Assembly (NCBI GenBank): GCA_029068555.1
Contig: JAIECJ010000076.1
Location: 1-42,348 of the forward strand
Length of the DNA stretch: 42,348 nt
Source: Lachnospiraceae bacterium
GTDB lineage: Bacteria > Bacillota > Clostridia > Lachnospirales > Lachnospiraceae
Direction: 5' to 3'
The translations under genes were made by a program, and so were the position numbers. This document shows, piece after piece, positions 8,764 through 16,353 of this stretch; position 1 is the first letter of the stretch, and each line of letters opens with the position of its first letter. Under the pieces are notes generated by a model. It saw nothing but the letters and a program-made list of their open reading frames with translations. It was not told the DNA's origin and searched no databases.

Positions 8764-8792
8764 TTGTTTTATTATATTTAGCATGGTATAGT
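8764..8792 (+). promoter_or_regulatory. Promoter for the tRNA-like RNA / DUF2828 transcript
   Basis: TTGTTT (8764-8769), a 17-base spacer and TATAGT (8787-8792). The expected start of transcription, about seven to nine bases further on, falls at 8799-8801, which is the first base of the acceptor-like stem of the first tRNA-like RNA. No terminator is visible between here and the DUF2828 gene. Confidence 0.55.
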
Positions 8793-8800
8793 AGATACAT

Positions 8801-8892
8801 GAGTGGCTCGGAGGTGGTGCCTTGACAAAGGCACACGCAGCAAGCGTATACTTATTTGGTTTAAGTCGGTTCGAATCCGTCCCAGCCACTCC
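8801..8892 (+). ncRNA. tRNA-like RNA 1 (D-arm replaced; UGG-type loop)
   Basis: GAGTGGCT (8801-8808) and AGCCACTC (8884-8891) form a perfect 8-bp acceptor-like stem. An anticodon-like arm, ACTTA/TAAGT (8850-8866), has a seven-base loop, TTTGGTT, that would read UGG. A T-arm-like CGG-TTCGAAT-CCG follows at 8867-8879. No D-arm can be drawn; in its place is the core shared with the two following RNAs: a 19-base hairpin (8816-8834, stem 8817-8823/8828-8834, loop GACA), three bases, then CAGCAA (8838-8843). No CCA is encoded. The short T-stem and missing D-arm argue against an ordinary decoding tRNA. Confidence 0.6.
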
Positions 8893-8967
8893 TGTTAAAG
8901 TGTGTGGATTTCGTCTGCATACTGTGCCAGGCATATATGCAATACTGAATATGTGTCTGCTAAAAAT

Positions 8968-9083
8968 AGGGCTATAGCTCAGTTGGTAGAGCAGGTAAAA
9001 GGAGCTTTGTCAAAAGCTCTTGCAGCAATTTTCTCCAAGGACTGTTAATCCCCTCGTCGCCGGTTCGAGTCCGGCTAGCCCTG
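8968..9083 (+). ncRNA. tRNA-like RNA 2: Asn(GUU)-type tRNA with a 43-nt arm in the anticodon stem
   Basis: Without bases 8996-9038 this is a canonical tRNA. It has a 7-bp acceptor stem (8968-8974 with 9076-9082), T-A at positions 8-9, a GCTC/GAGC D-stem with an AGTTGGTA loop, anticodon stem GGGGA/TCCCC with loop CTGTTAA (anticodon GTT), a five-base variable region, a GCCGG/CCGGC T-stem with TTCGAGT, and discriminator G. The extra 43 nt sit between positions 28 and 29 of the anticodon stem. They hold AAAA (8997-9000), the hairpin GGAGCTTTGTCAAAAGCTC, TTG, CAGCAA (9023-9028) and TTTT (9029-9032). No CCA is encoded. Whether the insert is removed cannot be told from sequence. Confidence 0.8.
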
Positions 9084-9123
9084 CTTTCCGGATGCGAAAG
9101 AACGTGTTTGGAAAATAAAATGT

Positions 9124-9241
9124 GGAGCCGTAGCTCAGCTGGATAGAGCGGTGTCAAAAGGAGCTTTGCCAAAAGCTCGTACAGCAATTTTACATATGGA
9201 AGATACCCCACAGGGCGCAGGTTCGAATCCTGCCGGCTCCA
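9124..9241 (+). ncRNA. tRNA-like RNA 3: Ile(GAU)-like tRNA with a 44-nt arm in the anticodon stem
   Basis: The cloverleaf is complete: acceptor GGAGCCG/CGGCTCC with discriminator A, T-A at 8-9, a GCTC/GAGC D-stem, and a GCAGG/CCTGC T-stem with TTCGAAT. If 9154-9197 are skipped, GTG and GG join to form a perfect anticodon stem with CCCAC. The loop is then AAGATAC, placing GAT at the anticodon but A instead of the near-universal U at position 33, so decoding is doubtful. The inserted arm repeats that of RNA 2: AAAA, GGAGCTTTGCCAAAAGCTC, GTA, CAGCAA (9182-9187), TTTT. No CCA is encoded. It ends 56 bases before the DUF2828 start codon. Confidence 0.75.
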
Positions 9242-9245
9242 AATT

Positions 9246-9278
9246 AAAAAGAACGATAAAGCTTCTGCAGTAATTTTT
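9246..9278 (+). promoter_or_regulatory. Leader copy of the tRNA-like insert arm, upstream of the DUF2828 gene
   Basis: A-run 9246-9250 pairs with T-run 9274-9278. Inside, AGAA (9250-9253) can pair with TTCT (9263-9266), leaving GCAGTAA (9267-9273) as a 3' bulge before the T-run. This is the same layout as the inserts in RNAs 2 and 3 (A4, hairpin, GCAGCAA bulge, T4), and AAAGCTTCTGCAGTAATTTT aligns almost base for base with their 3' half. It ends seven bases before the ribosome binding site GGAGGG at 9285, so a protein bound here could block translation. Autoregulation is inference. Confidence 0.5.
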
Positions 9279-9297
9279 CGGAATGGAGGGAATAGAA

Positions 9298-10860
9298 ATG
9301 GGATTCATGCAGAATATTAAGAACATGTTAACGAACGAATACAATACTTCTGTGACAGAAAACGGCGCATCTGGGTATAAGACTACAGGAAAAGCTCTGC
9401 TTGATTTGAATTTTTCTGTCTCTTCATGCAGAAATGCCTCACAGGAAGAGATTGTGAGCAAGTTTGTGAAAGCATACTATGAGAATCCAAGACTTGCAGT
9501 CCGGTGGCTTTTCTTTGCAGGTGATGTAAGACAGGGATTAGGAGAGCGCCGGCTTTTCAGGACACTGATTATGTATCTGGCAAATAACCATATTGACATT
9601 GCAAGGGCTTTGATACCTTTGATACCAGAGTTTTCAAGGTGGGATATTGTTGTGGCGCTGCTGGATACGCCGCTTGCGAACGATGCGGCTGATATGATGC
9701 GGCGTCAGATACATGAGGACAATATTAATATGGAGAAAGGGGAATCTGTCAGTCTCTGTGCGAAGTGGCTTCCATCTGAAAATGCGTCCGCAGAGCACAC
9801 AAGAAAGATGGCACGTGTTCTGGCAGAGAGACTTTCTATGACAAGAAAGCAATACCGGCAGATGCTGTCTGAACACAGAAAGTATCTGGATGTTGTGGAA
9901 GTGAAAATGAGTGGCAGGAGATGGACTGAAATTGACTATAGCGCGGTTCCGTCAAAGGCAAACCTTGTGTATAACAAGGCATTTCTGCGAAATGATGAGG
10001 AACGCCGCAGGGAGTTTCTTAGTGCCGTAAAAAAAGGTGAGCAGACAATTCATGCAGGAGTACTTTATCCGCACGATATTGTACATTCCTATATGAGAGA
10101 TGGTGAAAGTGCATGGACAAAGATTCTTGCACCTGCTGATGACACACTTGAGGAATTGTGGAAGGCGCTTCCTGATTATGTTCAGGGTACTGGAAATACA
10201 CTCTGTATTGCAGATGGCTCTGGAAGCATGACAGCCACTGTCGGAAATACACAGGTGACTTGTCTGGATGTGGCAAATGCGCTGGCAGTCTACTTTTCGG
10301 AACGCTGTACAGGACAGTTCAGAAATATGTATATCACGTTTAGCCAGACGCCACAGTTTGTTGATTTGTCAAAGGGCAGGTCACTTCACGACAAAATTGA
10401 AATTGCACTGAACTACAATGAGGTAGCAAATACCAATATCGAGGCAGTTTTTGACTTGATTTTGCGCACTGCAGTAAAGTGCCATATGCCGCAGTCAGAG
10501 CTTCCAGAAAATCTATTGATTTTGTCGGATATGGAATTTGATGCAGCAACGAGAAGCTACGTCAATGGTAAGTCGGTATCGCCCGATGAAAAGCTGTTTG
10601 ATATGTTTGCCACAAAATATGCGATGCATGGCTATCGTCTGCCAAGACTGGTATTTTGGAATATCTGCAGCAGAACAAACACCATTCCTGTCATACAAAA
10701 TGCGCTTGGCGTTGCGCTTGTGAGTGGATTCTCACCGGTTATTGTGAAGATGGTGCTAAGCAATGAGATTAATCCATATAAGGCGCTTGTAGAACAGCTT
10801 ATGGTGCCGCGATATGATGTGGTAGAGAATGCTGTAGAAAGTGTCATGGAAGCATGTTAA
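9298..10860 (+). CDS. DUF2828 family protein with C-terminal vWA domain, Ro60-like architecture
   Basis: A 520-residue protein. The N-terminal 280 residues are helical, with the DUF2828 signature RWLFFAGDVRQGLGERRLF and SRWDIVVALLD. The C-terminal part is a von Willebrand A domain with a metal site: DGSGS at residues 306-310, and LSDMEFD with Asp411. PRLVFWNI and VALVSGFSP are further DUF2828 hallmarks. The domain order of a helical-repeat ring followed by vWA is that of Ro60/Rsr, which hold Y RNAs; homology beyond architecture is inference. Start at 9298 is set by GGAGGG at 9285-9290; the upstream ATG at 9283 lacks a site. Three tRNA-like RNAs precede it in the same transcript, making RNA binding the leading hypothesis. 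Confidence 0.85.
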   Translation: MGFMQNIKNMLTNEYNTSVTENGASGYKTTGKALLDLNFSVSSCRNASQEEIVSKFVKAYYENPRLAVRWLFFAGDVRQGLGERRLFRTLIMYLANNHIDIARALIPLIPEFSRWDIVVALLDTPLANDAADMMRRQIHEDNINMEKGESVSLCAKWLPSENASAEHTRKMARVLAERLSMTRKQYRQMLSEHRKYLDVVEVKMSGRRWTEIDYSAVPSKANLVYNKAFLRNDEERRREFLSAVKKGEQTIHAGVLYPHDIVHSYMRDGESAWTKILAPADDTLEELWKALPDYVQGTGNTLCIADGSGSMTATVGNTQVTCLDVANALAVYFSERCTGQFRNMYITFSQTPQFVDLSKGRSLHDKIEIALNYNEVANTNIEAVFDLILRTAVKCHMPQSELPENLLILSDMEFDAATRSYVNGKSVSPDEKLFDMFATKYAMHGYRLPRLVFWNICSRTNTIPVIQNALGVALVSGFSPVIVKMVLSNEINPYKALVEQLMVPRYDVVENAVESVMEAC

Positions 10861-10879: not shown

Positions 10880-10919
10880 AAAAAGACAGCTTTGCTTTTG
10901 GTTGGCAGCTGTCTTTTTT
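10880..10919 (+). terminator. Terminator after the DUF2828 gene
   Basis: AAAAAGACAGCT (10880-10891) pairs perfectly with AGCTGTCTTTTT (10907-10918), with a 15-base loop and a T-run. It closes the tRNA-like RNA / DUF2828 transcript. Confidence 0.88.
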
Positions 10920-15754: not shown

Positions 15755-16279
15755 GTTTGCGCGCCCTAGCGGGTGTGAGTCCCGAACATGTCCAGGTAGT
15801 GGGAAGTGTATAGCTGAACAGCAAGGGTGTTCATCGCGAGATGGAATCTGAAGGAAGCTAGGCAAATCTCTGGTCCGACGAACAGAAACCGCATATAAGG
15901 CTAGGCTACGAGAGATAAGTTGGCCAAAAGCAACGGAGTCTAATAACTACCACATATACGATTCCGCTTACGAATGTGTATATGGAAACAATGGAAAACT
16001 CCACAGAACAGAGCAAAGAACTTGATGAAACTTGGGATTAACAAGAAGTTTGCATGGTCAACAGCTTATTACGGAGCTCATATAGCCCGCGTGTGCCAAG
16101 GTGGTGCAATGAATATGGCTGTTACAAAAGAGAGACTAACCCGATTTGGATTAGTCTCAATGTTAGATTACTACACCGAAAGGTGTGTAGCCTGTTAAGT
16201 TGATTGAACCGCCGTGTACCGAACGGTACGCACGGTGGTGTGAGAGGTCGGGAAATTTATTTAAATTTCCCTCCTACTC
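15755..16279 (+). mobile_element. Group II intron (IIC-like), internally deleted
   Basis: The 5' part begins GTTTGCGCGCCC and continues with domain I-like sequence (GGGTGTGAGTCCCG; GAACAGAAACCGCATATAAGG; AGATAAGTTGGCC). Domain V is at about 16209-16238: CCGCCGTG/CACGGTGG with a GAAC loop, the two-base CG bulge and a CGC triad. Domain VI follows with GGGAAATTT/AAATTTCCC, and the 3' end CTACTCGAT lies near 16279. Only about 525 nt remain because nearly all of the reverse transcriptase gene is missing; just its C-terminal end survives. The boundaries are estimates. The ribozyme core looks intact enough that splicing with help in trans is conceivable. Confidence 0.85.
15953..16198 (+). pseudogene. 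C-terminal remnant of the intron-encoded maturase / reverse transcriptase
   Basis: The frame HIRFRLRMCIWKQWKTPQNR continues to a stop at 16198 and matches the maturase (GIIM) end of group II intron proteins, including KNLMKLGI and LVSMLDYYTERCVAC. The polymerase domain with its YxDD site is absent: the upstream sequence passes directly from domain I-like RNA into this fragment, so an internal deletion of more than 1 kb is inferred. The first ATG is inside the fragment and has no ribosome site, so it is unlikely to be expressed. Confidence 0.85.
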
Positions 16280-16353
16280 GATTTGTTAAATTATGTCTTA
16301 AAAAACTTTATAACAATAAATAACAAAAAATATAATAAACAAAGGCATTTTAG

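Follow-up and report, generated by a model that had tools for sequence, protein, structure and literature searches.

What would three tRNA-like RNAs be doing upstream of a gene for a DUF2828 protein? The question is raised by contig JAIECJ010000076.1 of a Lachnospiraceae bacterium (assembly GCA_029068555.1), analyzed at its full length of 42,348 nucleotides (nt) and called here the window. On its plus strand, RNA1, RNA2, and RNA3 are followed by a gene with the Pfam domains DUF2828 and DUF7788 and then by a terminator-like hairpin (Table 1). From sequence comparisons and a predicted protein structure, we consider that the locus probably (roughly 0.6) encodes a ribonucleoprotein (RNP) of the Ro/Y RNA type that would act in tRNA damage and repair, the RNAs possibly being bait. 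Expression of the RNAs, their binding by the protein, and the bait function are what we infer from these comparisons.

The three RNAs have in common a core made of a 7-base-pair (bp) hairpin with a GNNA loop, two bases, and [AG]CAGCAA. Across loci, the stem has the consensus AAG-RYRC-NN-ACAGCAA ... GYRYCUU-G (7 bp): the seven bases ending two before ACAGCAA pair with a seven-base partner, which is followed by G (in the closed form, the partner precedes the G-loop). The 101 bacterial loci analyzed comprise the window, 20 loci of its family, and 80 relatives from named genomes. These relatives are the best 80 of at least 537 obtained by a pattern scan, mostly clostridia, plus spirochaetes, one Bacteroidales, and one Victivallales record. 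At 95% DNA identity, the 101 loci form 97 clusters and the 80 viral loci used below form 71; counts other than those of locus clusters include near-identical sequences.

Within 600 nt upstream of DUF2828, the coding strand has 139 copies of ACAGCAA and the opposite strand three. At upstream [AG]CAGCAA sites, not selected for pairing, the stem is paired in its fixed register in 145 of 183 cases; the control sites are paired in 25/186 cases elsewhere on the plus strand and in 6/153 on the minus strand (31/339 together). With the register shifted by one base or more, at most 11 of the 183 upstream sites are paired, and at TROVE loci (n = 7) one site of 13 is. Compensatory changes are present in all seven pairs and in both stem topologies (51 rows for the closed one); the rows of the covariation alignments (A3 and A4) were chosen for pairing, so that their "100% paired" holds by construction. 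A perfect element is found in 80 of the 97 bacterial loci with at least 300 nt of upstream sequence, and two or more elements in 54 of them. The spirochaete loci (L075, L092, L093) have the element, and no perfect upstream element was found in the Bacteroidales (L118) or the Victivallales (L083) locus. In 20 bacterial and eight phage loci, the RNAs exceed Rfam cut-offs only as tRNA, if at all. In a DNA search with RNA2, matches were mostly about 21–27 nt long and fell at the acceptor/D-arm and T-arm parts, the pattern that tRNA genes would give; among the matches listed, those above 100 nt came only from the window's genome and from genome G637. The tallies of this search were not used.

The stem goes with the gene. 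Two covariance models were built, R1 for the closed form and R2 for the open form; their E-values are rough, and both may match one element. Of 200 genomes from the window's family, 22 have DUF2828 (one of the 22, G100, has its locus, L023, outside the 101 loci). R2 has matches in 15 of these 22 genomes vs. 2/178 others, and R1 at E ≤ 1e-4 in 5/22 vs. 1/178. When both are combined (R1 at E ≤ 1e-3, R2 at E ≤ 1e-2, two cut-offs that were set after the tables had been seen), RNAs are present in 20/22 DUF2828 genomes vs. 4/178 others. An earlier note on this DNA, made from its sequence alone, had proposed a covariance-model scan of the DNA upstream of the family's DUF2828 genes. At E ≤ 0.01, R1 adds seven genomes without DUF2828, at 23–27 bits, which are taken as noise. 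Of the four exceptions in the combined count, G059 and G096 may match by chance; G131 and G135 are considered below. Where a genome has DUF2828, its matches are no farther than about 1 kb from the gene, with two exceptions: in G092, one match is on a different contig, and in G118, one is a few kb off. The latter, an extra tRNA-like RNA (L183, ∼1500–1640), is followed by bases resembling a second DUF2828 end, perhaps a duplication with loss.

In the viral contigs (n = 80, none in model training), R2 and R1 give 164 and 54 matches at E ≤ 0.01, possibly overlapping, and all 218 are on the strand of the gene. Sixty-three of the 80 viral loci have a model match (55/71 by cluster); by the perfect-pairing rule, 48/80 have an element within 800 nt upstream. 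Viral sites are paired in 96/162 cases upstream, 84/224 elsewhere on the plus strand, and 3/70 on the minus strand; the many paired sites of the second group indicate elements downstream too.

The position directly 5′ of the gene in those 80 of 97 bacterial loci would suit a cis-acting leader, in which the RNAs, instead of being separate molecules, regulate the DUF2828 mRNA (T-box-like, or with the bound protein as an autoregulator). However, the elements are 3′ of the gene in phages SUSP1, Rumpelstiltskin, and 6ec, a tRNA-like RNA with an ACAGCAA core occurs upstream of RtcB in G051, RNAs occur in genomes without DUF2828, and multiple copies are common (at least two in 54/97). We regard a leader function as highly improbable.

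The protein itself recalls Ro60. As the earlier note had recognized, the gene encodes DUF2828 and vWA parts: Pfam gives DUF2828 (1.3e-36) and DUF7788 (8.5e-42), and a DxSxS motif of the metal ion-dependent adhesion site (MIDAS) type is present. The AlphaFold2 model from an alignment of 20 homologs (mean predicted local distance difference test 87, predicted template modeling score 0.87) has helices followed by a vWA-like part, that is, as a prediction, the helical ring and C-terminal vWA/MIDAS fold of Ro60. In a Foldseek search of the PDB, the top 13 entries are all Ro60, TROVE, or Rsr, including Ro60–RNA complexes (best E 8.6e-8), with template modeling scores of 0.36–0.55 over 519–591 alignment columns. 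An hhalign comparison with six TROVE proteins yields a probability of 90.5% (E 1.3e-6, 370 columns). The TROVE profile (PF05731) does not match the window protein, for which Pfam has only DUF2828 and DUF7788; neither PADLOC nor NCBIfam has a match, and phrog_850 matches its family at E 1e-131. No TROVE gene was found in the window's genome or in the 200 genomes of its family; TROVE is present in 9 of 398 genomes drawn from the phylum. A Ro60-like fold of the DUF2828–vWA protein is probable. The proposal that the DUF2828 protein is a counterpart of Ro holding these RNAs gains from the predicted fold, the TROVE alignment, the genomic association, and the RtcB, WYL, and RlaP neighbors described below.

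How far are the RNAs tRNAs? RNA2 is above the Rfam tRNA cut-off of 29 bits, the alignment having 59 bases where the anticodon arm would be, and RNAalifold on nine related RNAs gives five helices: the acceptor, D, and T arms, the core hairpin, and a small anticodon arm. In RNA3, the acceptor, D, and T arms are complete by eye, and Rfam gives only a subthreshold tmRNA match (18.6 vs. a cut-off of 47 bits). In RNA1, acceptor and core are present, the T arm has four of five pairs, and a D arm is not discernible by eye. ARAGORN called no tRNA in the window, RNA1–3 included. Three tandem RNAs with a common core, as first described, thus hold good, with the tRNA likeness reduced in RNA1. After the three cores, the next-best R1 site in the window has 13.2 bits; the cores themselves are three of the 51 training rows of R1. 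RNA1–3 are more stable than dinucleotide shuffles (z of −3.2, −2.2, and −2.4). Whole cloverleaves are absent from the single-sequence minimum-energy folds, and the cloverleaf rests on the Rfam alignment and the nine-sequence consensus. The picture of nearly complete tRNAs with an arm grown from the anticodon stem applies to RNA2, where the extra arm is inside the 5′ strand of that stem and a real anticodon arm persists beyond it; it does not apply to the many family RNAs that are not tRNA-shaped. With the insert in its anticodon stem, RNA2 does not have the standard anticodon arm of a functional tRNA cloverleaf. A further copy of the core, claimed for the leader at ∼9260–9285, was rejected: it reads CAGTAA, neither R1 nor R2 matches it, and by eye it is not kept in eight relatives.

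In the whole family, the stem has two topologies. In type A (open), it closes an apical domain of variable length. In type B (closed, as in the window), its outer ends are joined by a loop starting with G, mostly GNNA, and it sits in the anticodon arm of a tRNA-like RNA of ordinary order. There are 76 type B cores in 39 loci; the tRNA body is absent from some, and a few cores look accidental. By a regular expression, 44 of 257 type A elements (bacteria, viral contigs, and phages) have a T arm, several of these rows being spurious in that they run from one type B RNA into the next. Some type A RNAs are arranged as in the Rfam YrlA model, with a T arm first, then a hairpin (acceptor), and then a D arm. 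By eye, examples are L103, L282, L300, SUSP1 (L361), Rumpelstiltskin (L362), and L364; in L364, the fold also draws T arm, acceptor hairpin, and D arm. Other type A RNAs have D, anticodon, and T arms in the normal order, the stem replacing the acceptor stem (L124 and L116, by eye). The permuted type A and type B can be read, on their sequences, as circular permutations of one layout. The L364 locus belongs to Bacillus phage vB_BcoS-136 and contains, at 446–2422, seven cores by R2 and six by the perfect-pairing rule; they are interspersed with, and 3′ of, ordinary tRNA genes, and at least two hold tRNA-like modules, one of them permuted as in YrlA.

Authentic anticodon loops are kept, but their identity switches between close relatives. 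Eight near-identical RNAs of the RNA2 group have a 7-nt loop with the anticodons GUU, UCU (three times), GUC (twice), GAU, and CUU; in the ninth member the loop is shortened. Diversity at the three anticodon columns is 0.5–0.8 vs. 0.16 alignment-wide, and the 5′ flank outside the RNA is equally variable. Both tRNA-Asn genes of the window's genome have the same loop as RNA2, CUGUUAA, and the loops CUUUUAA and CUCUUAA of relatives are those of its tRNA-Lys genes. A perfect T arm is found in 107 elements, of which 12 leave too little space for an anticodon arm and were dropped. Of the other 95, 44 have a correctly placed loop of 7 nt in which position 33 is U and position 37 a purine; in 200 shuffles, the number of such elements averages 2.6 and never exceeds 7. 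Fifteen different anticodons occur among the 44 arms.

Could the RNAs instead be intron-containing or permuted tRNA genes, from which an endonuclease and RtcB would remove the core to give working tRNAs? The insert does split the 5′ strand of the anticodon stem in RNA2, RtcB adjoins in 19 of 101 loci, and the permuted order resembles that of permuted tRNA genes. However, ordinary tRNA-Asn and tRNA-Lys genes are present in the genome, and five anticodons on one acceptor scaffold would presumably be poorly tolerated by aminoacylation identity. Many elements with the same core are without a tRNA part (a T arm in 44/257 type A, some spurious), and RNA1 is without a D arm. Processing into working tRNAs is the least likely of the explanations considered.

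The neighboring genes suggest a link to RNA repair. A cluster of RtcB (PF01139) is found within the flanks of 19/101 loci, one of WYL-domain proteins in 33/101, a second regulator cluster in 32/101, and one of RlaP (PF10127, an RNA-repair nucleotidyltransferase) in 4/101, two of these being the same contig. Pfam was run on one member each of the WYL and RtcB clusters; in the second regulator cluster, some members match WCX (of three members, one is over the cut-off, one below, and one without a match). The window's gene is adjoined by none of the RtcB, WYL, WCX, and RlaP clusters. A conserved element, TTCGCAACTTTTTTTCC[GA]TGAT, occurs ∼130–620 nt 5′ of DUF2828 in L037, L041, L045, L049, L113, L116, L124, L126, and others, where a TATAAT-like box and then the first RNA come after it, and a partial form precedes the orphan RNA of G131; it is perhaps an operator of the adjoining WYL regulators. 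In the window's genome, RtcB lies on contig C15 (L165, 2678–6284); next to it, on its 3′ side, are encoded a protein that by eye resembles a receiver and a Band-7/SPFH protein, a combination known from RNA-repair systems.

The DUF2828 protein family is present in 681 of 50,697 phage records. Among the 60 phage records listed, several are annotated as "RNA-binding protein" or DUF2828, and seven of the eight Mycobacterium phage rows as "Ro-like RNA binding protein." Elements are near the gene, upstream or downstream, in seven of eight named phage loci (Vibrio phage nt-1 has none near the gene), annotated tRNA genes are within 2.5 kb of it in six of the eight, and the Listeria phage locus also encodes a tRNA-splicing ligase. 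In a 2026 overexpression screen, the Ro-like protein, an RNA ligase, and a polynucleotide kinase of mycobacteriophage LeBron were all toxic (PMC13148394). By analogy with the identical annotation in Rumpelstiltskin, the LeBron protein would be a DUF2828 protein.

Taken with the RtcB, WYL, RlaP, and tRNA-gene neighborhood, which argues for a process of tRNA damage and repair, these observations suggest the following particle. The DUF2828–vWA protein very probably binds the AAG-RYRC-NN-ACAGCAA/GYRYCUU-G stem, which it would grip as Ro grips the base of a Y RNA; the tRNA module would project away from the protein and, in the window and many relatives, mimic a tRNA. There is a good chance that the complex acts in the tRNA damage and repair branch of RNA metabolism, like Rsr–YrlA in rtcBA operons. 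More tentatively, the module could be a bait or decoy, its intact, exchangeable anticodon loop attracting anticodon-cutting nucleases or factors that read the loop, and the cut or damaged RNA could be held, sensed, or passed to RtcB. A change of loop identity on a constant scaffold is the pattern expected of bait under changing attack. One may speculate further that DUF2828 RNPs display changeable real anticodon loops on a tRNA-shaped scaffold as fast-evolving nuclease bait, the topologies being circular permutations of one particle, in which the stem forms the two ends of the RNA, serves as its acceptor stem, or is inserted as an arm into the anticodon stem. For YrlA, the tRNA domain is suggested to be a possible competitive inhibitor of an anticodon nuclease, YrlA itself being uncut (PMC7790460).

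The main rival would be a tether or gate, as in Deinococcus radiodurans Rsr–Y RNA. Through its tRNA module, the RNA would then dock the Ro-like ring to another enzyme (PNPase or RtcB, for example) and control which structured or damaged RNAs enter the ring; the anticodon loop would be incidental or would recruit a modification enzyme. The Ro-like fold, the Y-RNA-like stem with a variable apical domain, and the YrlA order of T arm, acceptor hairpin, and D arm in phage and clostridial elements would all fit, and tethering of Rsr to PNPase is reported (PMC7790460). Such a function fails, however, to predict authentic 7-nt anticodon loops with an identity that changes between close relatives, and we consider it unlikely.

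Several observations weigh against a Ro/Y RNA-type bait particle. On the protein side, the structural superpositions have root mean square deviations of 7.9–12.2, and a PDB search with the protein's sequence profile gives no significant match to Ro60 (TROVE at E 1.9); the kinship of DUF2828 with TROVE is therefore remote. Seventeen of the 97 bacterial loci with sufficient upstream sequence are without a perfect element, and 17 of the 80 viral loci are without a model match. The RNAs are confined to DUF2828 neighborhoods as a rule, but a few genomes show what the earlier note had named as counterevidence, RNAs without a DUF2828 neighbor: G131 has an orphan tRNA-like RNA and no DUF2828 match in the genome, and G135, also without a DUF2828 match, has two open-form RNAs 5′ of RtcB. 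The apical domain of the first of these two is tRNA-like. RtcB is outside the window, one copy being on another contig of the genome, and its co-occurrence with DUF2828 is moderate (13/22 DUF2828 genomes vs. 51/178 others, p 0.007). Many RNAs of the family are without tRNA features, and bait is therefore not the function of all. The anticodon-arm rule fails in 51 of the 95 T-arm elements, and U33 is missing from the RNA3 loop. Lastly, even with a threshold of E 0.1, the RNA of L364 with its permuted tRNA gives no match to the YrlA model.

The signals around the window's genes complete the picture (Table 1). A promoter had been proposed ahead of RNA1. Sigma-70-like sites between 8500 and 11050 on both strands are not above chance (seven vs. 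5.7 expected); a T-rich element before a TATAGT-like box does recur at the equivalent place in the relatives L055 and L060. The start of the gene is likely ATG 9298, five codons within the longest frame and after a Shine–Dalgarno-like GGAGGG (∼9285–9290). The terminator that the note had placed after the gene is borne out by a hairpin and T-run, which was not among the output of the automatic terminator scan.

Table 1. Features of the DUF2828 locus in the window
Feature	Position	Strand	Evidence or detail
Possible promoter, TATAGT-like −10, just 5′ of RNA1	8770..8800	+	By eye
RNA1, degenerate tRNA-like	8801..8891	+	Acceptor 8 bp GAGTGGCT/AGCCACTC, T arm
RNA1 core	Hairpin 8817-8834, GCAGCAA 8837-8843	+	Model R1 35.4 bits
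RNA2, complete tRNA-like RNA	8968..9083	+	Rfam tRNA 44.8 bits; nine-RNA consensus structure
RNA2 arms	Acceptor 8968-8974/9076-9082, D arm 8977-8992, T arm 9059-9075	+	
RNA2 core, proposed protein-binding stem	9002..9028	+	R1 47.2 bits; covariation in 51 rows; 7-bp hairpin with GUCA loop (9002-9019), GCAGCAA 9022-9028, within the 5′ strand of the anticodon stem
RNA2 anticodon arm GGA-CUGUUAA-UCC(CC), anticodon GUU	9039..9053	+	
RNA3, tRNA-like RNA	9124..9240	+	Acceptor 9124-9130/9234-9240, T arm 9217-9233
RNA3 core	Hairpin 9161-9178, ACAGCAA 9181-9187	+	R1 44.2 bits
RNA3 anticodon-like loop AAGAUAC, without U33	9200-9206	+	
DUF2828 + DUF7788 (vWA) protein, 520 aa	9298..10860	+	Pfam; predicted Ro60/TROVE-like fold
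Terminator-like hairpin and T-run 3′ of the gene	10880..10918 (about)	+	Fold −17.1 kcal/mol

Elsewhere in the window, at 15830–16282, there are parts of a group II intron (Rfam D1D4-3 at 15830–16001 and Intron_gpII at 16207–16282); the parts are ∼200 bases apart, and the intron is therefore short, without space for a reverse transcriptase. On contig C31 of the same genome (L164, 1655–1768), a 114-nt tRNA-like sequence with extra bases and without the ACAGCAA core is followed, after 1768, by further T-arm-like repeats.

With these results, DUF2828, widespread in phages and bacteria, can be assigned a fold class and an RNA partner, both as probable, and its likely process can be named; the stem of the partner is defined by sequence. 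A second Ro–RNA system would stand beside TROVE for the long-standing question of Ro particle function, and tractable phages of Escherichia coli K-12 and Mycobacterium smegmatis carry the DUF2828 system. If the RNAs are bait, they would be an RNA-based counter to tRNA-cutting defenses with a specificity readable from sequence; if the bait is changeable, an arms race would be run in noncoding RNA.

Among known systems, the closest is Rsr with YrlA or Y RNA. The likeness lies in the Ro-type fold and in an RNA with a terminal stem and a tRNA-like module, here carried on the proposed protein-binding stem. The place of Rsr–YrlA in rtcBA operons has its parallel in the RtcB neighborhood of part of the DUF2828 loci, and the YrlA order recurs in some of the associated RNAs, in L364 by its fold. 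The differences are several. Rsr is a TROVE protein, whereas the window protein has DUF2828 and DUF7788 instead; by eye, the DUF2828-associated stem departs from the YrlA consensus; and, unlike in YrlA, the tRNA of the window RNAs is unpermuted, the stem is tetraloop-closed in the anticodon arm, and anticodon loops are retained. Against the YrlA model (RF02553, cut-off 69 bits), the best match in the window has 25.3 bits and spans two adjacent RNAs; it was discounted as a chimera of the RNA2 T arm and the RNA3 D arm. No YrlA match over the cut-off was obtained in 20 bacterial and eight phage loci. With animal Ro60–Y RNA, compared on the protein side alone, the likeness is in the fold; animal Y RNAs are not known to have tRNA modules.

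Chen and colleagues are said to have found likely Y RNAs near Ro60 in more than 250 bacteria and phages (in RNA, 2014). In 2016, Burroughs and Aravind reportedly surveyed repair systems, among them systems that contain Ro or tRNA-like RNAs, including a Band-7/SPFH-associated RNA. The latter is reportedly likewise a tRNA-like noncoding RNA in RtcB contexts, with a different protein partner. The phage "Ro-like RNA binding protein," phrog_850, and DUF2828 are the same protein family, named from the protein. The claim that the pairing is undescribed therefore needs dividing: the Ro-likeness of the protein was already annotated in mycobacteriophages, and the literature, searched largely by title, gave no account of DUF2828-associated RNAs, DUF2828 appearing in four papers, on plants by title, and DUF7788 in one on proteases. 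Known already, then, are a Ro protein with a Y RNA that has a tRNA-like domain and with RtcB, and phage DUF2828 under the name "Ro-like." What appears to be new within the Ro–Y RNA kind is that the RNAs have their own stem, occur in several permuted topologies, and carry anticodon loops that are exchangeable.

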